This document shows, one piece after another, positions 5,247 to 20,055 of a stretch of DNA of 23,482 bases. Numbering within the stretch: the stretch's first letter is position 1; each line of letters starts with the position of its first letter. The translations under genes were made by a program, and so were the position numbers. This DNA is from a virus, in IMG/VR virus record IMGVR_UViG_3300010160_001969, positions 1 to 23,482 of that record; one strand, written 5' to 3'. The notes below the pieces were generated by a model. The model made no database searches. It had not been told where the DNA came from and worked only from the letters and a program-made list of their open reading frames with translations.

Positions 5247-5274
5247 ATTATATCAAAACTGGAGGGTTTGTCAA
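5247..5274 (-). promoter_or_regulatory. Sigma-70 promoter for the vWA gene
   Basis: On the minus strand TTGACA (5274-5269), a 16-bp spacer, then TATAAT (5252-5247) preceded by TGA (extended -10). The predicted start is about 5240, giving a leader of about 20 nt before the ATG at 5219. Confidence 0.9.
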
Positions 5275-5278
5275 GAGC

Positions 5279-5391
5279 CTGTTGTATAAAAACAACAGTT
5301 TGGAAGTCGCATGGGACTTAGGGATGGAGCGGATAACAGGAGTTAAACCTGTCTACCCATTGGGATGGGCTGTCTCGGACTTTCCGCATTT
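5279..5391 (-). ncRNA. Candidate structured RNA with a tRNA-like cloverleaf
   Basis: A consensus promoter at 5398-5426 fires into this non-coding stretch, with the predicted start at about 5391. From 5387 to 5325 the RNA can fold as a 63-nt miniature cloverleaf. The acceptor-like stem is GCGGAAA with TATCCGC (one A-A mismatch), followed by T and an encoded CCA. A tiny D-like hairpin is GTC-CGA-GAC. An anticodon-like arm CCCAT/ATGGG has only a 4-nt loop. A well-formed T-arm, ACAGG/CCTGT, has the 7-nt loop TTTAACT. Two more hairpins follow: AAGTC/GACTT (5319-5304) and CTGTTGT/ACAACAG (5298-5279). The short anticodon-like loop rules out a normal decoding tRNA. No ORF of note lies here. Function is unknown; it may be a tRNA mimic, a tRNA relic or a new phage small RNA. 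Confidence 0.5.
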
Positions 5392-5397
5392 GTGTCT

Positions 5398-5426
5398 ATT
5401 ATAACATTATATATGCACTTTGTCAA
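5398..5426 (-). promoter_or_regulatory. Consensus sigma-70 promoter for the tRNA-like RNA
   Basis: On the minus strand TTGACA (5426-5421), an exact 17-bp spacer, then TATAAT (5403-5398) preceded by TGT. Both hexamers are perfect. The first possible coding gene downstream is 170 bases away and has its own promoter, so this promoter appears dedicated to the RNA. Confidence 0.9.
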
Positions 5427-5430
5427 GCGT

Positions 5431-6708
5431 TTATCGACCAACCGCAGGCAAATATTTATTCTTTGCCTCTGGCCAGGTTAGTGTGGTTAAATCATCATAA
5501 AACAATGTCTCATTATTGTTACGACCTTTTTTGACCAACTGCTTGATACGAGGTTTGGCATGTTTAGTTCTCCAAATCTCAGTCAAGGCTTCTACACTTG
5601 TGTCAAATGATTTAATCAATACATCATCACCAATTCTCTTATTAAGGTAATCAACAGAGTTATCATACAGAGGTGACCAATAAATGCCTCGAGCATGATC
5701 TGTACGAATCAACTCTTTAGGTATGTTCAGTTTACTATACACAAATTGAAGTGAACGATTCTTATGGTCACGTTTATGTGGTTGACCAGAAGCTTTCTTT
5801 GCAGAATACCACTCAAAGTATTTGCGTGTATGTTTTACTTTTAACCAATCACGAATTTGATAACGAGTATTCTTTTCTGGTTCAAATGATACAGAACCTG
5901 CCGTAAAACCCATCTTCTGCCAGTGGTCTAAATTATCATACTGTGATAGACCATCAACCTTGGTTCTACCATATAATGATGTTGTTGTTACTGAAACAAG
6001 TACATCACCATACAATTTCTTCCATAGTTCTTGTACAGGATCAGCAAGACACAACAATGCAAGTAGTTTACCACCAACATAATTAAAACCAAGTGGTTGT
6101 AATGGAACAATCGTAGAACCAATGGCAGTATGGTTAATCATACCGCCTTGTGTCTTCAGTTCTCTAGGCCAACCAATATGATTGTCTCTTGGTGTTAAAT
6201 CAAGGAAGTCGGATGAGATGCAGATAACACCAAGATACTTCTTAGTTACTTTATCACGAATTACAAAGTTAAGGTTACGACCAATGTTAGAATTGTTCTT
6301 CATTGTAGATGAGAAGGTACGAATACAATTCCACAATTCAGGCAATTTTTCTTGCTTACTGGTGTACAACATCTCTGGTTGTAAATTTAGATAGTCTTCA
6401 GGTGTTTCTGGAATCCAGAAGTTTTTCTTGATTCCTTCAATTGCAAGACGTTGACCTTCATCTTCTACTACTCGTTTCTCACCTTCCCATAAGTCATTCA
6501 CAACAACAGATGGATATTTCTCTTGCACCTCACACCACTTTTGATACAGTGTATATTCTTTAACATCCATACCTGATACGAATGTGAGGTCTTTGATAAT
6601 GTTTTCACGCAAGGCCTCATCGGTTAGAATAGCGGGTTGTACTAGTTGTGCAGACCACTTTTGCCACTGTGTTTCAACATCATCTTTAGGATCAAATGCG
6701 TAAGCCAT
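5431..6708 (-). CDS. DUF4338 / DruA-like protein
   Basis: A 425-residue protein with the DUF4338 pattern in its centre (about residues 145-265): RNLNFVIRD, YLGVICISSDFLDLTPRD, HIGWPREL, then FNYVGGKLLALLCL and VLVSVTTTSLYGR. DUF4338 is the family of DruA, the core protein of the Druantia anti-phage system. The N-terminal third (to about 140) is helical and unassigned; the C-terminal third is basic (HKRDHKNRS, KPRIKQLVKKGRNN), fitting nucleic-acid binding. Its ATG overlaps the deformylase stop (TAATG), so it is in the gp47-gp46-deformylase operon. DruA's biochemistry is not settled in my knowledge, so no activity is claimed. It might be phage-borne defence against competitors or a housekeeping nucleic-acid protein. 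Confidence 0.7.
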   Translation of the reverse strand: MAYAFDPKDDVETQWQKWSAQLVQPAILTDEALRENIIKDLTFVSGMDVKEYTLYQKWCEVQEKYPSVVVNDLWEGEKRVVEDEGQRLAIEGIKKNFWIPETPEDYLNLQPEMLYTSKQEKLPELWNCIRTFSSTMKNNSNIGRNLNFVIRDKVTKKYLGVICISSDFLDLTPRDNHIGWPRELKTQGGMINHTAIGSTIVPLQPLGFNYVGGKLLALLCLADPVQELWKKLYGDVLVSVTTTSLYGRTKVDGLSQYDNLDHWQKMGFTAGSVSFEPEKNTRYQIRDWLKVKHTRKYFEWYSAKKASGQPHKRDHKNRSLQFVYSKLNIPKELIRTDHARGIYWSPLYDNSVDYLNKRIGDDVLIKSFDTSVEALTEIWRTKHAKPRIKQLVKKGRNNNETLFYDDLTTLTWPEAKNKYLPAVGR

Positions 6709-7283: not shown

Positions 7284-8992
7284 TTTAATATCCTTGAAAA
7301 ATTCTTTTCTTTACCAAATTTAATCACATTCAAAAACTTATCTTGTAGGATATCACCTTTGTGTGATATAACAAATAAATTAACACCATCAAGCATATGA
7401 AGTATCTTCATCAGTTCTTCTGTTCCGTTAGTATCTAGGCTTGAATCAAAGGTCTCATCAAGCACCAAAAGATTGGTGTTTGCAGAATTCTTTAACTTTG
7501 CAACGGCACGCCATGTTAACATCAGTGCCATGTCAATACGTTGTTTCTCACCTTCTGAGAAGTTATGATAAGAAAAGTCATCACGGTGTCTTGACTTGAT
7601 TGTTTCTTTAAACGATTCATCTAGGTTAAAGTTTACAAAGAAATCTAACGATGATAAATATTTGTTTACCAGTTTATTAATAACTGGTAAATATTGGCGA
7701 ATGATTTTAGTTTTAATGCCTGTATCTTTCAATAAACCAGAAGCTGTTTCATAATATGTTTTTTCTTCTATTAATAATTTTAAGTCTGATTCTAATTGTT
7801 TCAACTGACTCGCAAGTTCTTGCAACTGTATTTCTTGCAGCTGTGTTGAACCTTTTGTCTCTTTCAATGCCGCAACTGTTTTCTGTATTTTAGAAATATA
7901 CTTGTTAACTTCATTGATTGTTGTATTCTTAGTTGCAATTTCAATTTGCAATTTCTGAATCGCCTTTTGTGTCTCAGAAATCCTATTCAGCTTAGCTTGC
8001 TCTTCTAACAACTTAGTCTCAAGGTCTTTTAACCCAAGCTCGCATTGAGTTGTTTTAGTTTGCAAAGACTGTATTTGTTCTTCTTTAAACTCAGAGACAA
8101 TAGATTGCCTACACGTTGGACAATCATCATTATGTTGAAAAAAACTAATGTCTTTCTGAAACTTAGAAAGGTTATTTTCAATTTGTGTTTCTAGTTTACC
8201 TAGTTTCTTGACTTTAGTTTCAGTTTCAACTTGTAGTGCCACATCGGCAGAGTAGACCTCAACTTGTACTGTGAGGTTAGCTATTTCATCATGTAAACAT
8301 TGTATAGATTGATTGCTATTAAGTATCTCAGTCTCATACTCTTTCACCTTCTCATCATTGTTTTGTTTCACTTCATCAATATGTTTTTTCTCTAAGTCAT
8401 ATTTCTGTTGTGTCAAATCTATATCATACTTTGTTACAGTAATAGTTTCTTTATTGATACCCATCTTTTCTCTAACAATAGAATTCATTGTAGAAAAGAT
8501 TTGAATATCAAGTAAGTCTTCAATGATAGCTCTTCTATCGGAAGAAGATAACTGCATGAACGGTGTGAATGATGCAGAACCTAAAATTACAATCTGAGTG
8601 AATGATTTGTAATTTAGTTTAAGAACAAACTTCTCAAGGTATTCTTGATAGTCTCTTGCGGCTGCATCTTGATTAACAAGTTCACCATCACAATAAATCT
8701 CAAAGACATTTGGTTTAATACCACGAATGACTTTGTATGATTTATTGTTTGAATCAAATTCCACTTCAACGACACAATCTTTCTGATTGATCGAGTTGAG
8801 TAGTTGCGGTTTATTAATACTTCGAAACGCCTTACCAAACAAAGCAAAACACAATGCATCAAGCATTGTACTCTTACCCGAACCGTTTTCTCCAACAACA
8901 AGAGTATTAGAGTTATTATGTAAATTTATTTCAGTAAAATAATTTCCAGTTGAAAGAAGGTTCTTCCAACGCACATAACGAAAAATAATCAT
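7280..8992 (-). CDS. 46: Recombination endonuclease subunit gp46 (SbcC/Rad50-like)
   Basis: A 570-residue SMC-type ATPase, close to T4 gp46 in length. Walker A GENGSGKST is at 34-42. A long coiled coil (about 190-430) carries the zinc-hook CPTC at 291-294 at its tip. The ABC signature SEGEKQRID begins near 479, and Walker B LLVLDET lies near 508-514. It works with gp47 as the Mre11/Rad50-like complex that resects double-strand ends for recombination-dependent replication. Its ATG overlaps the gp47 TGA (ATGA), so the subunits are translationally coupled. No anomalies were seen. Confidence 0.97.
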   Translation of the reverse strand: MIIFRYVRWKNLLSTGNYFTEINLHNNSNTLVVGENGSGKSTMLDALCFALFGKAFRSINKPQLLNSINQKDCVVEVEFDSNNKSYKVIRGIKPNVFEIYCDGELVNQDAAARDYQEYLEKFVLKLNYKSFTQIVILGSASFTPFMQLSSSDRRAIIEDLLDIQIFSTMNSIVREKMGINKETITVTKYDIDLTQQKYDLEKKHIDEVKQNNDEKVKEYETEILNSNQSIQCLHDEIANLTVQVEVYSADVALQVETETKVKKLGKLETQIENNLSKFQKDISFFQHNDDCPTCRQSIVSEFKEEQIQSLQTKTTQCELGLKDLETKLLEEQAKLNRISETQKAIQKLQIEIATKNTTINEVNKYISKIQKTVAALKETKGSTQLQEIQLQELASQLKQLESDLKLLIEEKTYYETASGLLKDTGIKTKIIRQYLPVINKLVNKYLSSLDFFVNFNLDESFKETIKSRHRDDFSYHNFSEGEKQRIDMALMLTWRAVAKLKNSANTNLLVLDETFDSSLDTNGTEELMKILHMLDGVNLFVISHKGDILQDKFLNVIKFGKEKNFSRILK

Positions 8993-10750: not shown

Positions 10751-10779
10751 TTGACAACTCTGTCGAATAAGCATATCAT
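10751..10779 (+). promoter_or_regulatory. Possible plus-strand (antisense) sigma-70 promoter
   Basis: On the plus strand TTGACA (10751-10756), a 17-bp spacer, then TATCAT (10774-10779), 11 of 12 consensus bases. It points into the 3' end of the minus-strand gene at 10776-11174, so it could only make an antisense RNA. With the gp55 promoter it forms a divergent pair; the two GCTTGACA copies are an inverted repeat around the decamers. Confidence 0.35.
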
Positions 10780-11174
10780 AGCGGTGTTCCGTTTTCAGAT
10801 AACTCTTTAGTTACCTTTTCCAGTAACCGTAAGACACGCTTTCGATAATCAAATCCAAGTATTGATGCCTTCATACCATCATCGTACGGTGGGTTTCTAC
10901 CTTCAGAATGGTATTGATTGACAGTTAAATCAATTAGTTGGCCATTTACATCTACCACCCACCAATGCCAGATATCTTCATCATCTAGTGCTCGGTACAG
11001 TTTGATGTTCTTTGTACCAAATACTTTCTGTAGGCAACCAGAAGCAGTATGGCAATGGCCAAACATTGGGTTAGATGCATTGCGTTCAACCCACTTCTTA
11101 GGTAATAAGTCAGGTGTCAAATTCATTATAATAATGCCTGATACCAATTCTAAATTATCTTTATTATACTCCAT
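10776..11174 (-). CDS. Conserved phage hypothetical protein, possible Cys-His-Asp hydrolase fold
   Basis: A 132-residue soluble protein I do not recognise by name. It contains FGHCHTASGCLQKVF, then ALDDEDIWHWWVVD and GQLIDLT. The ordered Cys, His and Asp, each at the start of a predicted helix or strand, recall the papain/transglutaminase-like (NlpC-type) fold; this is a weak inference. Similar unnamed proteins occur in T4-like cyanophages. The ATG at 11174 overlaps the SDR stop as TGATG; an in-frame TTG one codon upstream is less likely. It is the last gene of the accessory block before the gp55 promoter. Confidence 0.55.
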   Translation of the reverse strand: MEYNKDNLELVSGIIIMNLTPDLLPKKWVERNASNPMFGHCHTASGCLQKVFGTKNIKLYRALDDEDIWHWWVVDVNGQLIDLTVNQYHSEGRNPPYDDGMKASILGFDYRKRVLRLLEKVTKELSENGTPL

Positions 11175-12100
11175 CAAACATTACCATACTTACGATTGTT
11201 AATCATCTTGAAGCCTTTGATTAGCTCTTGAATCCCTGCATCTAGGCCATGTTGTGTTTGAAATCCAGTTGCCTCAATTTTATCATTTGATACAATGTAG
11301 TTTCTTTGGTCCGGGTCTTTACCAACTTTTGCTTCAATGAATGTGAATTTAGGAACATATTTCTTAATTGATTCACACAAATCCCATTTAGATATGTTTG
11401 CTTCAGACAGGCCTACATTATATATTTCACCTTTCATATCTTCAAAGTTATTTAGTGCATGAATAAAAGCGTTAGATACATCTCTCACATGAACATAGTT
11501 GCGTTTGAAATGGCTTTCAAATAGAACGGCACATCCATCGGTAACGGCTCGGTGTACAAAATCGTTAACGAGTAAATCAATTCTCATACGAGGTGACATG
11601 CCAAACACGGTTGCCAATCTGTAACTGATGGAGTTTAGATGATCCATCAGTTTCTTTTCTACTTCAACTTTATCTTTGGCATACAATGAAATAGGATTCA
11701 AGGCTGATTCTTCAGTACATAATGTGCCTGTACCATATGCACTATTGGTTGTTGGCATTAAAACAACTTGGTCTTTAGAAATGTAATCAAGCATCATAAA
11801 GATGGCATCTTTGTTGGTAGAAGATGCACCAATTGGATCTTTGTTACACAATGGTGCACCAACATATGCCGCCAATGGAATAATAACATCAGCTTGTTTT
11901 AAAATTGGAAATATATCCGATTTGATACGAACATCACCATTGAATACATTGAAGTTCTTTAAATGTGAAAGTTGATTCAAAGATGTTTGGCCATACATAA
12001 AGTTATCAAGTACAGTTACATTATGTCCTTTACTCAAAAGCATTGGCACAAGTGTTGAACCAATATACCCTGCACCGCCTGTCACTAAAATATTTACCAT
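11174..12100 (-). CDS. NAD(P)-dependent sugar epimerase/reductase (extended SDR)
   Basis: A 308-residue extended short-chain dehydrogenase acting on nucleotide sugars. The nucleotide-binding motif TGGAGYIGS starts at residue 7. The active site has Ser120 in TTNSAYG and the YxxxK pair Tyr140/Lys144 (YAKDK). The Asp-Glu pair typical of 4,6-dehydratases (TDEVYG) is absent, so a 4-epimerase or a ketoreductase is more likely than a dehydratase. A FKRNYVHVRDVSNAF segment is the usual sugar-nucleotide-binding part. It lies one base after the ColD-like gene stop. In yersiniose synthesis an SDR (YerF) reduces the added acetyl group, which is a precedent for a partner role here; the actual substrate is unknown. 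Confidence 0.85.
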   Translation of the reverse strand: MVNILVTGGAGYIGSTLVPMLLSKGHNVTVLDNFMYGQTSLNQLSHLKNFNVFNGDVRIKSDIFPILKQADVIIPLAAYVGAPLCNKDPIGASSTNKDAIFMMLDYISKDQVVLMPTTNSAYGTGTLCTEESALNPISLYAKDKVEVEKKLMDHLNSISYRLATVFGMSPRMRIDLLVNDFVHRAVTDGCAVLFESHFKRNYVHVRDVSNAFIHALNNFEDMKGEIYNVGLSEANISKWDLCESIKKYVPKFTFIEAKVGKDPDQRNYIVSNDKIEATGFQTQHGLDAGIQELIKGFKMINNRKYGNV

Positions 12101-12101
12101 A

Positions 12102-13271
12102 TTATACCTTATTAATTATCTCACAAATTTCATCAATTTCTTTTACTTGCATTGATGGGAAATTACCAATATAGAACCCATAGGAGTGAATGTGTTCTGT
12201 GTTTTTAAATTTTTCAAAGTGCATTGGTGGCACCAAATTCTTTAAATATGGTTGTCTTAACTGATTACCACCGCCTGCACTACCTCTACGAAACTCAATG
12301 CCATTCTCACGCATTGCCGTCATAAGTTTGGCCAAATGAACATTATCTTTTTCTTTCATTACTAAATTAAAGGCATAATTACTTGCACCTTCTAATTTGA
12401 AATCAGTAAAGTATTTGTTTTGATCAATGTTACGCAAGAACCTTTCGTTATTAAAGTTCCTTAGTTTAACATTTTCATCAAGGTTTGGCAACTGCTTACG
12501 ACCAAGTATGCCACCTATTTCATTGTTACGCATATTGTAAGCTGCATAAGCAAAAATAAATTCTGGATTACAACCAGGATTACTCTCAATGTAGTCTTCT
12601 TTATAATCTTGGTTAGACAACTCTCTAACCATACCATGTGCTCGAAGCATTCTCAATGTCTGATATGTTTCTTCATCATCGGTACAAACCATACCACCTT
12701 CAATAGTGGTCATGTGATGAGCATAATAGAAAGAGAAGTTAGAAGTCCAACCAAATGAACCAACTTTCTTACCATTGTGTGTTGCACCATGTGATTCACA
12801 AACATCTTCAATCAAAGGAATGTTTCGTTTCTTTAATTCATCCAACAACTCATCAGTCAAGGCATTGAAGCCTTGAAGGTGTGATAGAAAAACTGCCTTA
12901 GTATTTGGTGTAATGGCATTAATAATGTCTTGTGTATTCATACCCAATGTGCTTAAGTCAACATCAACAAACACAGGCGCAAAACCACATTGGAGTACAG
13001 AAGCAATGTCTGACACCCATGTCAATGGTGGTACAATAACTTCACCGCCAAATGGGTTTTTAATTTTAAGTAATGTCAATGACAGTAAGTTAGCAGAAGC
13101 ACCTGAGTTAACAAACACAGAATATTTTACACCCAACCACTTAGACCATTCTTCTTCAAACGCTCGGCAATTTGGACCGTTGGTGAGAATAGGGTCATCT
13201 TGTTTCAAATGCTCAATGACGGCATCTAACTCACTCCTCAATATATTATTTCGCATCAATGGATATTTCAT
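12102..13271 (-). CDS. ColD-like PLP-dependent nucleotide-sugar 3-dehydratase
   Basis: A 389-residue protein of the DegT/DnrJ/EryC1/StrS aminotransferase fold. The PLP-binding Lys of aminotransferases is replaced by His in SFYYAHHMTTIEGGMV (HH at 185-186). That swap is the hallmark of ColD (GDP-4-keto-6-deoxymannose 3-dehydratase, 388 aa) and of CDP-4-keto-6-deoxyglucose 3-dehydrases. The overall pattern also follows ColD: the SGASANLL loop, IVPPLTWVS, EDVCESHGAT and MLRAHGMVREL. It should remove the 3-hydroxyl from a 4-keto-6-deoxy sugar. The lack of an obvious iron-sulfur cluster region favours ColD over the E1/AscC type. I choose ATG 13271, which has GAGGTG just upstream and lies right after the kinase stop; the longer reading from 13319 overlaps the kinase and lacks such a site. 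Confidence 0.85.
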   Translation of the reverse strand: MKYPLMRNNILRSELDAVIEHLKQDDPILTNGPNCRAFEEEWSKWLGVKYSVFVNSGASANLLSLTLLKIKNPFGGEVIVPPLTWVSDIASVLQCGFAPVFVDVDLSTLGMNTQDIINAITPNTKAVFLSHLQGFNALTDELLDELKKRNIPLIEDVCESHGATHNGKKVGSFGWTSNFSFYYAHHMTTIEGGMVCTDDEETYQTLRMLRAHGMVRELSNQDYKEDYIESNPGCNPEFIFAYAAYNMRNNEIGGILGRKQLPNLDENVKLRNFNNERFLRNIDQNKYFTDFKLEGASNYAFNLVMKEKDNVHLAKLMTAMRENGIEFRRGSAGGGNQLRQPYLKNLVPPMHFEKFKNTEHIHSYGFYIGNFPSMQVKEIDEICEIINKV

Positions 13272-13278
13272 AATCACC

Positions 13279-14274
13279 TCAATTAGATTTGTGTATAATT
13301 TGGCTGCCATTTGTATCAAATTTAAAAGGCACCCATACTTTAATAGAACTCATTTGTTCTTTGAACTTTTCTTGTTTCTCTGGTGGTACTAAGAAGAAAA
13401 AGAAACCGCCGCCACCTGCACCCATTAATTTACCACCAAGTGAGCCGTGTTTTATAGCTTCTTCATATATGTCATCAATCCATTCTTCAGAAACACCTTC
13501 GGCTAGTTGTCGTTTCAATCTCCATCCATAAGATAGTAATTGTCCAATACTTGCCATGTCTCTTTCTTCTATCATATAGTCTATTGCTATATTTGATAAT
13601 GCGGCCATTGCTTCTAATTCAGAAGTTGATTTGCCTTCTTTGATATTGGCAACTTTCTTTTTAGATTGTATTTCTGAATATCGACTAACACCAGAAAAAC
13701 CAAGCATGATATGTGACTCTAATTCTTTTGTGTAATCGGTAGATAACTTAAACTCACTAGTAGTCCAATCTGCGCCTTTGCTACAATCGATAATGCGAAC
13801 ACCACCATGTGCAGCCATGATTTGATCTTGTATGCCAACATTCTCTTTTAGAATGTTTTGTTCAATATAGATAGCTTCTTTTGCTAACTCATCTTTACTT
13901 AGTGGTCGGTTTTCAAAGGTGTAAAGTGCATTTAATAGTCCGATAGTGAATGATGAACTAGAACCGATACCTGAACGAGCAGGTAAATCACCTTCATATA
14001 CAACAGAAACTCCTTTATTAATGCCCATGTATCGCAAGCATTCTCTTGCAGAAGGATGTTTAATTACATTCAAAGAGTTTACTTTTTCTATTTCAGAATA
14101 TGTAATAACTGTATTGTAATCAAAGAATGGTGGAACATCTCTTATAGTAATGTAACAGTATTGTGCCATTGCAGCTGAAACAATCTTTGTAGGATGTTTT
14201 TCAAACCACGCTGGATAATCTGTACCGCCACCAAAAAGAGATAATCTATAAGGAGTTTTACTAATTACCATCAT
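13279..14274 (-). CDS. GHMP sugar kinase, HddA-like
   Basis: A 331-residue GHMP-family small-molecule kinase. The start SKTPYRLSLFGGGTDYPAWF matches D-glycero-D-manno-heptose-7-phosphate kinase (HddA) and related sugar-1-kinases. The ATP-binding glycine/serine loop PARSGIGSSSSFTIG lies at 98-112, and the C-terminal GGKLMGAGGGGFFFF motif closes the active site. It should phosphorylate C1 of a sugar or sugar 7-phosphate so that a nucleotidyltransferase can activate it; no nucleotidyltransferase or GmhA isomerase is in this window. ATGA overlap with the upstream oxygenase-like gene indicates coupled translation. Confidence 0.85.
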   Translation of the reverse strand: MMVISKTPYRLSLFGGGTDYPAWFEKHPTKIVSAAMAQYCYITIRDVPPFFDYNTVITYSEIEKVNSLNVIKHPSARECLRYMGINKGVSVVYEGDLPARSGIGSSSSFTIGLLNALYTFENRPLSKDELAKEAIYIEQNILKENVGIQDQIMAAHGGVRIIDCSKGADWTTSEFKLSTDYTKELESHIMLGFSGVSRYSEIQSKKKVANIKEGKSTSELEAMAALSNIAIDYMIEERDMASIGQLLSYGWRLKRQLAEGVSEEWIDDIYEEAIKHGSLGGKLMGAGGGGFFFFLVPPEKQEKFKEQMSSIKVWVPFKFDTNGSQIIHKSN

Positions 14275-15176
14275 AAAGTTATATGTTTAAGAGAGCCACT
14301 TGTGTAGTGACTGAACACTGTTTTTTTATCCATAATATTTTCTTTTTCACTACGCAAACAAGCAATATACAAATCTTCACCAATGTTTGGTACAGAATCT
14401 AGATATTCACCTTTACGATCTGGATGTACATCATGCTCACCAGCAAAAATAGTGGTATCAATTGACACTCTACTACCTGCATGTATCAATCTTTTTGTTT
14501 TATGTAATAAAGCATAGTCGCTTACATTTATATATTGTTGTTCTGGAATGACAACATCATCTTCATAGTAATCTGTTACCCATTGCATACTTGTATACTC
14601 AGCTGATGTTTCTAGGAATCTATCTTCAAATTTAGATTCATCTTTGAGTTTATAGAAATGCAAATAATTTTTTTGTGTATCACCAAAAATAGGTAAATGA
14701 CAATTCATACCCCACGGGCCTTCAACCCACGCATCTGAATGGGGTAAAGCCGTATCAAGACCACGACCAATATTATCTTCCAATTCCTTAGCAAACTTAA
14801 TACGAATGTTTGGTGTTAATCTAAACTTCTTTAGATAACTAGGATCATTTTCAATAAAGTGTTTGACTACATCACACCAACTGCGAATATAAAAGTTATA
14901 TTCTAATGCATATTCTTTTTTAGGTACAACACCGCCATTTGGTGTAACATTAGTTCTATCAATACGATGTGCATTAAGTCTATACATAAAGATATCTTCA
15001 CGTTCTGAATATTCAAAATGTAGTGCCTTTGCAATATACATTCCAATAGAACGTCTTAATGCATCATAAAGATTTTTAGGTATTCTTTTACGAATGAATA
15101 GTTCATTAACATGTTCTGCACCCCATGTTTGAGCCATCTGACTCATTCTTTCTTTGCGGTATTGTAATGAACTCAT
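14271..15176 (-). CDS. Probable Fe(II)/2-oxoglutarate-dependent oxygenase
   Basis: A 301-residue protein with a pattern compatible with the double-stranded beta-helix oxygenases. HxD (His146, Asp148) lies in LPHSDAWVEGPWGMNCHLP, a central NYLHFYKL follows, and a distal His232-Arg236 pair lies in RLIHAGSRVSIDTT. These would supply two His and one Asp for iron and an Arg for 2-oxoglutarate. The N-terminal 90 residues are helical and unassigned. It is tied by ATGA overlaps to E1 beta upstream and to the GHMP kinase downstream, so hydroxylation of the same sugar or lipid precursor is a reasonable guess. The family call rests on motif spacing only. Confidence 0.55.
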   Translation of the reverse strand: MSSLQYRKERMSQMAQTWGAEHVNELFIRKRIPKNLYDALRRSIGMYIAKALHFEYSEREDIFMYRLNAHRIDRTNVTPNGGVVPKKEYALEYNFYIRSWCDVVKHFIENDPSYLKKFRLTPNIRIKFAKELEDNIGRGLDTALPHSDAWVEGPWGMNCHLPIFGDTQKNYLHFYKLKDESKFEDRFLETSAEYTSMQWVTDYYEDDVVIPEQQYINVSDYALLHKTKRLIHAGSRVSIDTTIFAGEHDVHPDRKGEYLDSVPNIGEDLYIACLRSEKENIMDKKTVFSHYTSGSLKHITL

Positions 15177-16075
15177 TTTAATATCTCTTTAATTTTGGCA
15201 ACAATTTCATCTTTAGATGGTGGTAAATTATCAACTTGTGGATAAAAACCAGCTGATTTATCTTTCAAACCCATAACATGCATATCTGCATTGATGCCTT
15301 TAGATAAATCAAATGCCAAACTCTTTGCAATGCCATCAACATAATCATCATCTAAAACAATACCATGTTTAGCTCTTTTTAAACTGAGTCTATCATTTTC
15401 TGTGGGATTAAAAGGTTTAATGTTTACAATGTGATGCACGGCAACTTTGTATCCTTCTTTTTCCAATTCTTTAGATGCCTCAACAGCTGCAAATCTAGTA
15501 ATAGAAATAGGAAACAAAACAATATCAGGTATATCATATTCAATATTTAACAATTCTTCTGTATTGCCATATGCACCACGATGTTCTGATACATAAACTA
15601 CATCATCAGAATCCATAAAATCCAAATACGCATTTGCATATTCATTAGGTGTCATTGGTGATACAATTTTAATTCCAGGCATTCTATAATACAATGCATG
15701 ATGTGATGATCCTGCAACAGGACCAATACCACCTTCCATTGCAATAGAACGAACAAACATTGGACAAGGTACACCCCAAATTTCTTTTGACTTGGCTGCG
15801 TAGTTAATAATCATTGGTGCATTGAACCAATTGAAACCTTGATAACGAATGACATACATTGGTCTACGGCCTGCAAGAGCTGCACCAACGGCAAAACCAC
15901 CGCCTGCGACATCTGCCATTGATAACTCTACCATACCATCTTCTTCGTATAGTTCAGGTAGTGTACCACCAACCCACCCAACGGCGGTTAAACATTGACC
16001 CATTACAAGACCATTTTCTTTAGTTAAATGGTGTCTTACTGTGTCTTTAATAATATCTCTTAATGCGATAGACAT
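15173..16075 (-). CDS. Thiamine-diphosphate E1 component, beta subunit-like
   Basis: A 300-residue protein of the E1-beta/transketolase C-terminal class: pyrimidine-binding N-terminal domain (EEDGMVELSMADVAGGGFAV, where Glu and Asp contact the cofactor), NWFNAPMIINYAAKSKEIWG, EGGIGPVAGSSHHALYYRMP, then a C-terminal transketolase-C domain (VAVHHIVNIKPF, GIVLDDDYVDG). It pairs with the E1 alpha-like gene just upstream, overlapping it by 16 bases, with the ribosome site AAGGAGG inside the alpha gene's end. I choose ATG 16075; a TTG three codons earlier is too close to that site. Together the pair should decarboxylate a 2-oxoacid and form an active acyl or hydroxyethyl group. No E2 or E3 gene is visible. 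Confidence 0.85.
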   Translation of the reverse strand: MSIALRDIIKDTVRHHLTKENGLVMGQCLTAVGWVGGTLPELYEEDGMVELSMADVAGGGFAVGAALAGRRPMYVIRYQGFNWFNAPMIINYAAKSKEIWGVPCPMFVRSIAMEGGIGPVAGSSHHALYYRMPGIKIVSPMTPNEYANAYLDFMDSDDVVYVSEHRGAYGNTEELLNIEYDIPDIVLFPISITRFAAVEASKELEKEGYKVAVHHIVNIKPFNPTENDRLSLKRAKHGIVLDDDYVDGIAKSLAFDLSKGINADMHVMGLKDKSAGFYPQVDNLPPSKDEIVAKIKEILK

Positions 16076-16887
16076 TTTGACCAAGCCTCCTTCACTCTTT
16101 GTTCAGCCTCTTTAATAATATCAGTGCCAAACTTATCAATATAAATTTTGTGTCTATCAAATATATGTGGGTTATCAATGCCTGCACCTGCATGCCAAAA
16201 TATTCGATTAGTTGAGATGTTTAATAACATAGGTTTTTCCATGTTATGTGTCTCAATAAAATTCCAAATCATTAATGGATCATCAGTCAAACCAGATGCA
16301 CTCACATTCATACTCTTTGCTACGTCTTGTAATTCCCAATTACGCCTTACTTTTTTCTCAGTAAGTATTGATAGGTTATTATCTTCAACGATATACCAAA
16401 TGGGTAAGTTTTTTGTTGATGCCCAACCAACTGATGTAATCGCATAATCTTCCTCTGCGGCCGCATCGCCAGTAAAACATAATGTTAATTTTTTATTACC
16501 ATAACACATACCTGTTGCAATAGGTACATGTGAACCCATTAGGCCATCATGGCCATAGATTTGTTTTTCTCTAGATTGAATTGACGCAGAACCACCCATA
16601 CCATTGGCACAACCTCTTGTGTCACCAAGTAATTCATAAACAAGAGCTTCAATGTCACCACCAAAAGACAAGTATGTAGAGTGTCCTCGGTGTTGAATGA
16701 AGATTTGTTTATCGATAGATTCTAGATAAGTGGCGAGAGTAGCAGATGTGTACTCTTGTCCGGCAGAAAGATAAACAGGTATCTTTATAGTTTTATCTTG
16801 TACACGTTTGTAAACTTCTTCTTCAAAGGCGCGGCATAATGAAGCCTTACGGAAGATTTCTTTTTCAAGTTCATAACTTAGCGGCAT
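16060..16887 (-). CDS. Thiamine-diphosphate E1 component, alpha subunit-like
   Basis: A 275-residue E1-alpha of the pyruvate/acetoin dehydrogenase type. SLCRAFEEEVYKRV and YLSAGQEYTSATLA open the domain. RGHSTYLSFGGDIEALVYEL and GCANGMGGSASI follow. The thiamine-diphosphate motif GDA (140-142) to NN (170-171) has the family's spacing, with Ala in place of the third residue of GDG. It is shorter than full E1 alpha (about 320-370), lacking N- and C-terminal extensions. Orphan E1 alpha/beta pairs in antibiotic clusters (avilamycin AviB1/AviB2) are linked to adding two-carbon branches to sugars, a useful precedent here. It overlaps the DJ-1-like gene by 17 bases. Confidence 0.85.
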   Translation of the reverse strand: MPLSYELEKEIFRKASLCRAFEEEVYKRVQDKTIKIPVYLSAGQEYTSATLATYLESIDKQIFIQHRGHSTYLSFGGDIEALVYELLGDTRGCANGMGGSASIQSREKQIYGHDGLMGSHVPIATGMCYGNKKLTLCFTGDAAAEEDYAITSVGWASTKNLPIWYIVEDNNLSILTEKKVRRNWELQDVAKSMNVSASGLTDDPLMIWNFIETHNMEKPMLLNISTNRIFWHAGAGIDNPHIFDRHKIYIDKFGTDIIKEAEQRVKEAWSKCLSH

Positions 16888-17416
16888 TTTGTTTCACCAT
16901 ATCAATAGCAGTTTTCATCCAAATGCCCATGTGGTCATAGTGTGGTGATGATACAATGTTACCATCTACAACTACTGGTGCATTAACATATTTAGCGCCT
17001 GAGTTATTGATATCATCTTCAAGGCTATAGTAACCACTAATGTTACGACCTGCAACAATCTTTGCAGAAATCATTAACTGAGCACCATGACATGTAGATG
17101 CAATTACTTTACCTTGTTTGTTCCATTCAGAAATGAAATTGATAACTTGTTTTTCTTGTCTCAACTTCTCAAGAGCTTTAACACCACCAGGCAATACAAG
17201 CAAATCAAATTCATTTAGACATACATTAAAAAGAGATTCAATTGTCAAATCGGTAGTTAACATATGTGAGGTCATATTAGACCCCATGATACCAAAGAAT
17301 TTGCCTGTTACGTTGGACATAACAAACACTTCATCAGTTTCTTCTTTCAATCGATAGAATGGATAAACCAACTCTTGGTCTTGAAAGTTTTCCCATGTAA
17401 TAATCAATGCTCTCAT
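16871..17416 (-). CDS. DJ-1/PfpI family protein
   Basis: A 181-residue DJ-1/PfpI-like protein of the class I glutamine amidotransferase-like fold. It shows an N-terminal strand with Glu9 (ALIITWENFQDQE), LLVLPGGVKALEKL, the nucleophile elbow ASTCHGAQLM with Cys109 and His110, then a C-terminal NIVSSPHYDHMG. PfpI relatives act as glyoxalases/deglycases, hydratases or proteases, so the reaction is open. It sits between the radical SAM gene and E1 alpha. I choose ATG 17416 because AGGAG lies seven bases before it; a TTG two codons upstream is inside the ribosome site spacing. Confidence 0.82.
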   Translation of the reverse strand: MRALIITWENFQDQELVYPFYRLKEETDEVFVMSNVTGKFFGIMGSNMTSHMLTTDLTIESLFNVCLNEFDLLVLPGGVKALEKLRQEKQVINFISEWNKQGKVIASTCHGAQLMISAKIVAGRNISGYYSLEDDINNSGAKYVNAPVVVDGNIVSSPHYDHMGIWMKTAIDMVKQNAAKL

Positions 17417-17418
17417 AA

Positions 17419-18930
17419 TCAATCTCCTAATAATTTACGTTTCAATTTAATTGTCTTTGTTGAGTCTAACTCATCTCTAGCCTTTTGACCAAATTTATCT
17501 TCTAATAGATTTAAATACTTATCATTCGAATGATAGGTGTCCCAAGCTTTATCTCTAAATGCAAGGATTTCTGCCGAAGTTAAATGTTCGTTTGATAGAT
17601 TCAAAGTATCATATGAGTGTTGACTGTAACCAGAATATGTACTTGGCAGTTCTGTTCCAAACAATCTGGCTTGATTGTGTAATGGACTACCTGGATATGC
17701 CATTGCAGAATAGAAGTTTGCCATTTCAGTTGGATTCTCCAATGCAAAGTCTAATGTAGCCTGCATTGTCTCTTTTGTATCATATGGCAATCCAAAAATG
17801 TAATTACCACCAACATTGATTCCTGCATTACGAATATCATTAATCAAATCTAATACTTTAACTTCTTGAAATCCTTCTTTGTGAATTTCTTTACGCAAAT
17901 TGTTATTTGGATTTTCAATACCAAGACCCAACCATTTAACACCAGCCTTTTGCAACTTCTCTAAATACTTAGGCTTGCAGGTATCGACTCTTGAATATGC
18001 CCAAATGTTGAAATCATATCCACGTTCAATAATCAAATCACATATTTTACCAAAATGATTTGGGTTTAAAACAAATAGTTCATCAGCAATCTTTACGTTA
18101 CGAACACCCTGTGATGCAATGTAATCAAACTGTTTAATGATAAACTCTGGTGACCACCAACGGAATGTATTACTATCAGAACTTGAAACATCATCACCCT
18201 GTTTAGTTCTGTTAATAATATTAATCATACAGAAAGAACATTTGTATGGGCAACCAAGACTTGTATAGATGGCTGCAAATGGTTGTTTCTCTGTATCGTT
18301 AGACCATGAATGCCACCCAGCCGTTCTATACTTACTCAAAGGTGGTAACAAGTCCCATGCCATACCAGGAAGTTCTTCTTCAAGTTTTTCTTTTGGAACA
18401 ACTTCAGTTGGTTCATTCATAATGATATTAATACCATCTCTATAAACTAAACCAGGAACTCTTTTAAGTTCTGTTGCATTCAATTTACTCAATGACAGTA
18501 ATGCATGTAGTGTATATACACCTTCATTCTGACAAACGGCATCAATGAAAGTTTCTTGTTTCATTGTTTGTATTGGTAAAGCTGCAACGTGTCCGCCAAC
18601 AAACACAATGAATGTATCTGGTGATAAGTCTTTCAGTTCTCTTGCAGTTGCAGTTGCACCTTCCATGTTTTGTGATGATGCAGATGGTTGTTGGCCATAA
18701 ACAACAAAACAAACAATCTTTGTTTTATATTCGGTGATTCTTTTTGCAGCCGATAGGTAATCTAAACCTTCTACTTCTGCATCTAAGATTTCTGGTTTAA
18801 ATCCTTTTGTACGAACACTATTTGCCAGCATTGCAGCCCAAATAGGAGGTTCAATTGCGGCATTATTTTTAGCAAGGCCTTGATAAATCTTTTCAGATGC
18901 GTTAGGGTGTACAAATAATATATCAGTCAT
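17419..18930 (-). CDS. B12-binding-type radical SAM enzyme (BchE-like)
   Basis: A 503-residue radical SAM protein. Residues 1-150 form a B12-binding-like Rossmann domain (ILFVHPN..., FIVFVGGHVAAL), without the DxHxxG motif of base-off cobalamin proteins. The SAM barrel begins with the cluster motif CPYKCSFC, with Cys at 227, 231 and 234 (start at 18930), then IKQFDYIASQGVRNVKIADE and LGLGIENPNN. Such enzymes do C-methylation, epimerisation or ring chemistry by radical steps. In this block it could modify a sugar or its lipid carrier. I choose ATG 18930, which overlaps the HAD gene stop by eight bases; an in-frame TTG at 18942 is less likely. Confidence 0.88.
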   Translation of the reverse strand: MTDILFVHPNASEKIYQGLAKNNAAIEPPIWAAMLANSVRTKGFKPEILDAEVEGLDYLSAAKRITEYKTKIVCFVVYGQQPSASSQNMEGATATARELKDLSPDTFIVFVGGHVAALPIQTMKQETFIDAVCQNEGVYTLHALLSLSKLNATELKRVPGLVYRDGINIIMNEPTEVVPKEKLEEELPGMAWDLLPPLSKYRTAGWHSWSNDTEKQPFAAIYTSLGCPYKCSFCMINIINRTKQGDDVSSSDSNTFRWWSPEFIIKQFDYIASQGVRNVKIADELFVLNPNHFGKICDLIIERGYDFNIWAYSRVDTCKPKYLEKLQKAGVKWLGLGIENPNNNLRKEIHKEGFQEVKVLDLINDIRNAGINVGGNYIFGLPYDTKETMQATLDFALENPTEMANFYSAMAYPGSPLHNQARLFGTELPSTYSGYSQHSYDTLNLSNEHLTSAEILAFRDKAWDTYHSNDKYLNLLEDKFGQKARDELDSTKTIKLKRKLLGD

Positions 18931-19402
18931 ATTTTTTACCAATCAAATCATTCCAATCAAGTTCTTTAGAGTCTACAACTATTACATGTTTATGTTGTCT
19001 CATTTTATTTAACACATCATCATTGTCATCATAGAAGACAACAGGATTAGGATCAAATTTAACATCTAATGTTTTATCATATACTTTAGATTCTAATATT
19101 TTGATATGATTAAAATACTTATAGATGCCAAATGATCTTAATAGATGTATCGATTGTTGGTACTCATATGGTATTGTTGGGTGTTTACCAGCAGAAACAA
19201 AACCTATTTTGTTGTCGCCACTTTGAAGATATTTTAAATATTCTTTTACACCTTCTCTGAGTATGCATACAGAACCAACATCGTCAACGATAACGTCATC
19301 AGTATTATTAAAAGGGAAAACCATTTGTTTTGCCCAAATAGAATCATTTTTTTTATTAAAACAATCCCAAATCGTTAAGTCTAAGTCAAATAAGTGTATC
19401 AT
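18923..19402 (-). CDS. HAD-superfamily phosphatase-like protein
   Basis: A 159-residue small HAD protein. The nucleophile motif is DLDLT (Asp6, Asp8, Thr10); motif II is IGFVSAG near 67-72; a Lys lies near 106-110; and motif IV is FYDDNDD with Asp125/126 and 128. It resembles magnesium-dependent phosphatases and polynucleotide-end phosphatases of the same minimal size. In a sugar block it could remove a phosphate from a sugar bisphosphate, as GmhB does before HddC, but the sequence does not prove a sugar substrate. ATGA overlap with the cupin gene upstream. Confidence 0.78.
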   Translation of the reverse strand: MIHLFDLDLTIWDCFNKKNDSIWAKQMVFPFNNTDDVIVDDVGSVCILREGVKEYLKYLQSGDNKIGFVSAGKHPTIPYEYQQSIHLLRSFGIYKYFNHIKILESKVYDKTLDVKFDPNPVVFYDDNDDVLNKMRQHKHVIVVDSKELDWNDLIGKKYD

Positions 19403-20055
19403 TTTGTAATCGAAATCATAGTTGTAGTTGCATCAAAATAAAATACCTTTAACAGGCGAGAGAGTGTATGACCATCAATAACATCACCGGGCCATACAAT
19501 AATTTGATTTGTGTAGGTACAAATTCCACCTTTTGTTATAATATATAAGTCTTCTTCTTTACCATTCATTAAAGATCGTTTAACTGGGTTAAAGTGCCTT
19601 ATCTGACAGTTAAAAACTTGAATAGGTTTAGATTTGTTATCAGCTTCTCCTATCCAAATACAATCGTCAGTCTTTTCAGTATGGTGTTTTTCACCTTCGT
19701 ATTGTTCACCACTTCTTCCGTACTTGTCTTCTAATCTAACCAAGTCGTGTTTATCTTCCGGCGTTTCAACTTCAAGTATGTATGCGCCACCTTTAGATAC
19801 TGCTTTTGTGGAATGAAATCTAGACCTGAATATATGTATCTTGTCTAAAGCTTTTAATTTAATTGTATTCCGTAAGAATGATAACTCTGTTTTGCCTTTA
19901 AGTAAAACAAAACCAGTGTTCTTATTTGGATGACAATGCATTGAAGTTTCTTTTCCTTCTTCAATGTGTAGAAACCAAATTGCAATATCAGAATTTCTAT
20001 AACAGAGGTATTCCATACCCCACGGTTTTTTCACAATAACATCACTATAATCCAT
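19399..20055 (-). CDS. Cupin-domain protein, sugar-phosphate isomerase-like
   Basis: A 218-residue protein with an N-terminal cupin barrel. PWGMEYLCY opens it, then GKETSMHCHPNKNTGFVLLK supplies the HxH metal-binding pair, and a second barrel segment contains RFHSTKAVSKGGAYILEVETP. The C-terminal part (about 130-218, IRHFNPVKRS...IVWPGDVIDGHTLSRL) may be a second, degenerate cupin. Similar cupins in surface-polysaccharide clusters are annotated mannose-6-phosphate isomerase-like. It lies one base after the Sm-like gene and is the first clear carbohydrate gene downstream of UvsW. Substrate unknown. Confidence 0.75.
   Translation of the reverse strand: MDYSDVIVKKPWGMEYLCYRNSDIAIWFLHIEEGKETSMHCHPNKNTGFVLLKGKTELSFLRNTIKLKALDKIHIFRSRFHSTKAVSKGGAYILEVETPEDKHDLVRLEDKYGRSGEQYEGEKHHTEKTDDCIWIGEADNKSKPIQVFNCQIRHFNPVKRSLMNGKEEDLYIITKGGICTYTNQIIVWPGDVIDGHTLSRLLKVFYFDATTTMISITK

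Follow-up and report, generated by a model that had tools for sequence, protein, structure and literature searches.

A miniature tRNA-Gly derivative accompanies a DruA-like gene in T4-like phages and may carry glycine for its product

Background

What is made from a short interval between two phage genes when that interval holds two perfect sigma-70 promoters? The question is raised by the DNA between a DruA-like gene and a vWA 'peptidase' gene in a virus fragment taken from an IMG/VR record (the window, meaning the whole stretch analysed, comprises 23,482 nucleotides). The fragment comes from a freshwater phage that is kin to T4-like cyanophages and pelagiphages, as marked by its late sigma factor, its tail tube and its vWA 'peptidase', a member of phrog_459, and all long genes followed in it lie on the minus strand. 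The DruA-like gene has a peptide deformylase gene and the vWA gene as its neighbours. Elsewhere in the window, positions 10776-20055 hold what looks by eye like a sugar-nucleotide or LPS-like metabolic cluster amid T4-like core genes (sugar kinase, aminotransferase, epimerase, an E1-like pair and a B12-radical SAM protein). The features of the locus are collected in Table 1.

Table 1. Positions in the window of the features of the DruA-like locus and the evidence on which each rests.
Feature	Position	Strand	Basis
Sigma-70 promoter of the RNA, TTGACA-17-TATAAT	5398..5426	-	12/12 match
tRNA-Gly-like RNA, 63 nt, with encoded UCCA	5325..5387	-	fold z, model R1, covariation, identity positions
DruA-like (PF14236/DUF4338) protein, 425 aa, probable GNAT fold	5431..6708	-	Pfam, AlphaFold2 and PDB comparison, co-occurrence
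Hairpin 3, CTGTTGT-loop-ACAACAG (GTTG...CAAC)	5279..5298	-	fold; also at DruA-less, RNA-less loci
Second sigma-70 promoter, for the vWA/'peptidase' gene (5219-2958)	5247..5274	-	12/12 match

Results and discussion

A compact cloverleaf with its own promoter

The earlier note, made from the sequence alone, had proposed that the first promoter drives a tRNA-like RNA with an encoded CCA, that two more hairpins follow and that the next gene has a promoter of its own. The RNA product with its perfect promoter and encoded CCA was borne out, on the minus strand, and so was the separate vWA promoter. The RNA folds with an acceptor of five pairs (5387-5383 with 5333-5329) followed by a mismatch zone, a D-like arm of 3 bp (5380-5372), an anticodon-like arm of 6 bp (5370-5355) with the 4-nt loop CCCA at 5364-5361, and a T-arm (5353-5335) with the 7-nt loop UUUAACU, after which come U and CCA. 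The fold has a z of -4.2 and no shuffle folds equally well, which together with the compensatory changes in relatives rules out a chance structure. The covariance model R1 finds the RNA in the window at E = 1.6e-22, the window sequence being among the 27 used to build the model. Neither ARAGORN nor Rfam, the RF00005 tRNA model included, sees it, and blastn with the RNA against named phages gave no match. By covariation and encoded CCA it is a cloverleaf of the tRNA kind, and it lacks the 7-nt anticodon loop with U33, in whose place the 63-nt class has the four nucleotides CCCA or CCCC. A likeness to RNase P RNA, read by eye from GGAAAGUCCG, was discarded when Rfam gave it no support.

The two further hairpins did not stand as parts of the RNA. 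Hairpin 2 (5319-5304) is not conserved at L028 and other loci, and hairpin 3 stands before the vWA promoter even where the RNA is missing; both fall outside the RNA family, and an RNA of three hairpins was ruled out. Hairpin 3 is part of the region ahead of the vWA promoter and is perhaps a terminator for the RNA. This GTTG...CAAC hairpin was seen ahead of the vWA promoter at every locus inspected, including those without DruA or RNA.

Relatives of the vWA gene carry the RNA upstream in some cases and lack it in others, and where present it shows many compensatory changes, so the check on covariation that the earlier note had named was passed. Across 27 distinct 63-nt sequences, pairing holds in 97.5% of cells, double changes occur in 9 of 19 pairs, and 54 compensatory cells were counted against 16.8 in shuffles. 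For the 40 distinct rows from the covariance-model search the corresponding values are 97.8%, 12 of 19 and 101 against 25.5, and when the structure was slid along these rows, pairing fell to 37-53%. Alignment A6 was fitted to the structure and A1 was ungapped and unfitted. Longer relatives of 66-70 nt bridge the 63-nt form to tRNA-Gly. The promoter is conserved as well, with a score of at least 10/12 in 63 of 107 distinct stretches upstream of the relatives' RNAs and a -10 element that mostly ends 8-13 nt 5' of the RNA. Some loci have two tRNA-like RNAs in tandem: glycine-type pairs follow DruA at L029 (3718-3857), L039 (1361-1500), L042, L126 and others, the second member being 69 nt long with the loop GUCCA and the T-loop TGCGAAT.

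Glycine identity is kept while decoding features are lost

In bacteria, glycine identity resides in U73, G1-C72, C2-G71, G3-C70, C35 and C36 (PMC9976931, Table 1). Because our first scan pattern had GCGG...CCGCTCCA fixed, these positions were re-examined with the covariance model, in which changes at these sites are allowed. Across its 67 matches all acceptor identity positions are invariant, save C2 in one row, whereas the fifth acceptor pair of the same matches varies freely among UA, AU, GC and CG. CC is found in the loop of nearly all distinct RNAs that fold as a cloverleaf, in spite of varying loop length and stem (CCCA, CCCC, CACCCA, CUUCCCA, UACCC, UCCCC, GUCCA, GACCA). The D-loop GG (G18G19) and the TTC T-loop are gone in all of the RNAs and the 7-nt anticodon loop is gone in most. 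Canonical phage tRNA-Gly (T2/T4 and array tRNAs) shares the acceptor stem, U73 and CCA with the phage RNA and differs from it in having the D-loop GG, the T-loop TTCGATT and a normal anticodon loop, in standing in arrays and in being found by tRNA tools. Within the same phage group, large genomes carry such ordinary tRNA-Gly (74 nt, with GG and TTCGATT) in separate tRNA arrays, and some genomes hold both it and the degenerate RNA. Judged by its sequence, the 63-nt RNA is a tRNA-Gly derivative in which the marks for bacterial glycine loading are kept and the parts for protein synthesis are lost.

The earlier note had overlooked this identity set. Of the partners that it proposed, a synthetase is likely, and a decoy for anticodon nucleases is unsupported because the anticodon loop is destroyed; mimicry towards RNase P or a CCA enzyme leaves the link of the RNA to the DruA-like gene, described below, unexplained.

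The RNA belongs with the DruA-like gene

Equally overlooked was that the RNA is tied to the DruA-like gene upstream and not to the vWA gene. Starting from the protein, the RNA was present at 133 of 134 testable DruA-like loci and in all 54 protein clusters formed at 95% identity, the sole locus without a visible RNA being L155, where only 191 nt of downstream sequence are available. Starting from the RNA, a DruA-like gene lies upstream on the same strand at 77 of 77 testable loci, in 70 of them with a gap of 23-68 nt. At vWA loci the two features occur together (37) or are both missing (15), with no discordant case, and where ORFs are inserted between the RNA and vWA the RNA stays with DruA. 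An opposite-strand ORF, GIY-YIG homing endonuclease-like by eye, lies between DruA and the RNA in L128 (4750-5290), and a similar sequence directly follows DruA in L155.

These counts are inflated by shared ancestry, since the order DruA-RNA-vWA is mostly constant. Mere hitch-hiking is nevertheless disfavoured, as vWA loci lacking DruA also lack the RNA, as the RNA stays near DruA despite inserted ORFs and as its sequence turns over while the identity positions stay. We therefore regard the RNA as almost certainly a functional partner of the DruA-like protein. That the RNA precedes vWA and is read in its direction would suit a leader or riboswitch-like element of that gene, perhaps T-box-like or a processing signal. 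We rejected this scarcely credible reading on the perfect promoter that vWA has for itself and on the DruA-less vWA loci without the RNA, and the RNA moreover keeps to DruA past inserted ORFs.

A partnership could also be of another kind: the RNA might serve the DruA-like protein without being charged, as a structural cofactor or a regulator comparable to an RNA antitoxin or a scaffold, the protein binding the tRNA shape and glycine being irrelevant. Obligate pairing and adjacency suit any protein-RNA partnership. A scaffold would, however, be expected to preserve its overall shape, whereas here close relatives differ in stems, loops and even in the type of D- and T-arm and have in common precisely the GlyRS identity positions and the 3' CCA; we consider this alternative unlikely.

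A second lineage in pelagiphages

Degenerate tRNA-Gly also accompanies DruA outside the group of the window. The cultured Pelagibacter phages HTVC008M and Mosig encode DruA-like proteins of 56-59% identity; no RNA lies directly beside these genes, and a whole-genome pattern located it 4-8 kb off, each of the two phages having an unannotated degenerate tRNA-Gly 4-7 kb from the DruA-like gene. That of HTVC008M (KC465899, 91140-91213), at a distance of 4 kb, is a tRNA-Gly(ACC) that lacks the D-loop GG and has the T-loop AGCGTTA; it is the only tRNA found in the genome and has no clear promoter. The Mosig RNA (MT647606, 7779-7852) is missed by RF00005, and its site is annotated as a 31-aa ORF (Mosig_000011, 7774-7869), probably a false ORF over the degenerate tRNA-Gly. 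It has 22 of its first 24 bases in common with T2 tRNA-Gly, the two differences lying in the D-loop (TGG to AAG); the T-loop of the Mosig RNA is altered as well. Among 42 environmental contigs with pelagiphage-type DruA, the RNA lies downstream in 16, on the same strand and at a distance of 4.7-7.9 kb; these 16 include all contigs with at least 7.4 kb of downstream sequence, and in most a sigma-70-like promoter stands about 10 nt ahead of the RNA. No pattern match was found in 15 records without DruA, which include five complete cyanophages; this control is weakened in that cyanophage tRNAs may lack CCA. Unlike the 63-nt class, the pelagiphage RNAs have a normal anticodon loop, with U33 and an NCC anticodon. 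HTVC008M, Mosig and the pelagiphage-type contigs are an independent lineage with both DruA and a degenerate tRNA-Gly.

The clear tRNA-Gly ancestry, the U33 and NCC anticodon of the pelagiphage forms and the two-base distance of Mosig from T2 over the first 24 bases could also be accounted for by a decaying relic or by an ordinary phage tRNA used in translation. Against such an explanation stand purifying selection with compensatory change over 54 protein clusters, the conserved promoter, the missing decoding loop of the 63-nt class and the presence of normal tRNA-Gly alongside the RNA in some genomes, and we hold it to be very improbable.

Other DruA homologues follow different patterns. Those of the cyanophage type, which lie between the clamp-loader genes gp44 and gp62, are accompanied by ordinary tRNA-Gly only. 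The DruA protein of Druantia has the Pfam family PF14236 in common with the phage protein, above cut-off; the phage locus differs from the defence system in lacking the other Druantia genes, and 14 bacterial Druantia loci tested had no tRNA-like RNA. Matches to GCGG...CCGCTCCA beside bacterial druA in L370 and L372 were dismissed as chance, as neither is a cloverleaf and the L372 match falls within a reading frame of XRE type.

The DruA-like protein and its probable fold

PF14236 is the sole Pfam match of the DruA-like protein (E = 6.4e-18; 65.4 bits against a gathering value of 27), and the domain, DUF4338, has been termed a GNAT domain (PMC10853773). Two AlphaFold2 models (pLDDT 83.6 and 78.3) both match GNATs in the PDB comparison, and phage Mu Mom (8bv8) tops both VIA lists with Z of 9.9 and 10.0. 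SpeG-type acetyltransferases tie with it (Mom 9.9 against SpeG-type 9.3, and 10.0 against 9.9). The models thus support a GNAT fold, and, as Mom ties with SpeG and others, kinship with Mom is unproven. FemA (1lrz) reaches Z 9.3 to the GNAT domain, of which the model has one clear copy and FemABX two. No relative was found among PDB sequences, Mom included, nor by a query against genome contigs. One cyanophage relative is labelled 'methylcarbamoylase mom' by its depositors, and in BFVD the closest predicted viral structures are from the giant viruses Faunusvirus, Yasminevirus and Dasosvirus.

As TacT-type GNATs acetylate Gly-tRNA, and two entries (5fvj, 7f36) appear low in the structure list, the RNA might instead be a substrate or decoy in acetyl transfer, the DruA-like GNAT or a TacT-like host toxin acetylating glycyl-tRNA and the RNA being a sink or shield. 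TacT stands far down that list, however, and a decoy for a host toxin would not account for an RNA so strictly tied to a GNAT gene of the phage; we judge this quite improbable.

A proposed glycine carrier for a probable GNAT enzyme

The best explanation in our view is that the RNA is a glycine donor for the DruA-like enzyme, to which we give a probability of about 0.55. After transcription from its promoter and trimming back to the encoded CCA, the RNA would be loaded with glycine by host glycyl-tRNA synthetase through G1-C72, C2-G71, G3-C70, U73 and the CC of the loop. That it is charged with glycine we infer to be probable, although the 4-nt loop may offer C35 and C36 poorly to GlyRS. With an anticodon loop of only 4 nt and the D/T elbow lost, the RNA would be barred from the ribosome, and the DruA-like GNAT would use it as acyl donor, passing glycine to a target in the phage or the host. 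The most attractive target would be a DNA base, because Mom, a phage GNAT, puts a glycine-derived group on the N6 of adenine in Mu DNA; N6-glycyladenine could rearrange into the glycinamide-type base known from Mu. DNA as the target is a tentative guess with this chemical rationale, and it is likewise only a speculative possibility that phage DruA/DUF4338 is a Mom-like enzyme modifying DNA with glycine from a charged miniature Gly-tRNA as its dedicated cofactor.

A glycyl donor is the most economical reading, as the RNA is of the glycine type and the protein a predicted GNAT, and as both tRNA-using GNAT-fold transferases and non-translating tRNA-Gly are known. The S. aureus tRNA-Gly of the latter kind is full-length, has a normal anticodon loop, is chromosomal and is not known to be linked to one gene; the phage RNA, by contrast, has 63-70 nt, is phage-borne and adjoins its GNAT gene. 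Some enzymes of GNAT fold draw their amino acids from tRNA (PMC12945691), and S. aureus reserves tRNA-Gly without G18G19 for the GNAT-fold aminoacyl transferases FemXAB (PMC4052509). As in the phage RNA, Gly identity is kept there and the D-loop GG lost, and the S. aureus RNA is thought to escape EF-Tu (PMC4052509); for the phage RNA the transferase role is inferred. Mom resembles the DruA-like protein in being a phage protein of GNAT fold and the top structural match of both models, and differs in having no detectable sequence relation, the structural match being tied with other GNATs. To our knowledge Mom has no RNA partner. Its donor has been given as an acyl-CoA, for example glycyl-CoA (PMC7824862).

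Against a glycine donor count the Mom tie, the bacterial Druantia loci without the RNA, the cyanophage type with ordinary tRNA-Gly, the normal anticodon loop of the pelagiphage RNAs and the shared ancestry in the co-occurrence. In the literature searched, from which preprints and most subscription papers were absent, neither a link of DruA with tRNA nor one of Mom with glycyl-tRNA is stated, and no account of the chemistry of DUF4338/DruA, a defence-associated domain, was found; nor did that literature or Rfam contain a phage RNA whose dedicated task is to supply a partner enzyme with an amino acid.

Conclusions

The pairing of a tRNA-Gly derivative with a DruA-like gene offers a handle on the chemistry of DUF4338/DruA. 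If charging is true, the 63-nt RNA would rank with the smallest natural RNAs for which charging by GlyRS is expected. Should the reading with DNA as target also be true, this would be an aminoacyl-tRNA-dependent DNA modification, and glycyl-tRNA would be pointed to as the missing donor of Mom. The glycine donor in DNA modification of the Mom type thereby becomes directly testable in the cultured phages HTVC008M and Mosig.
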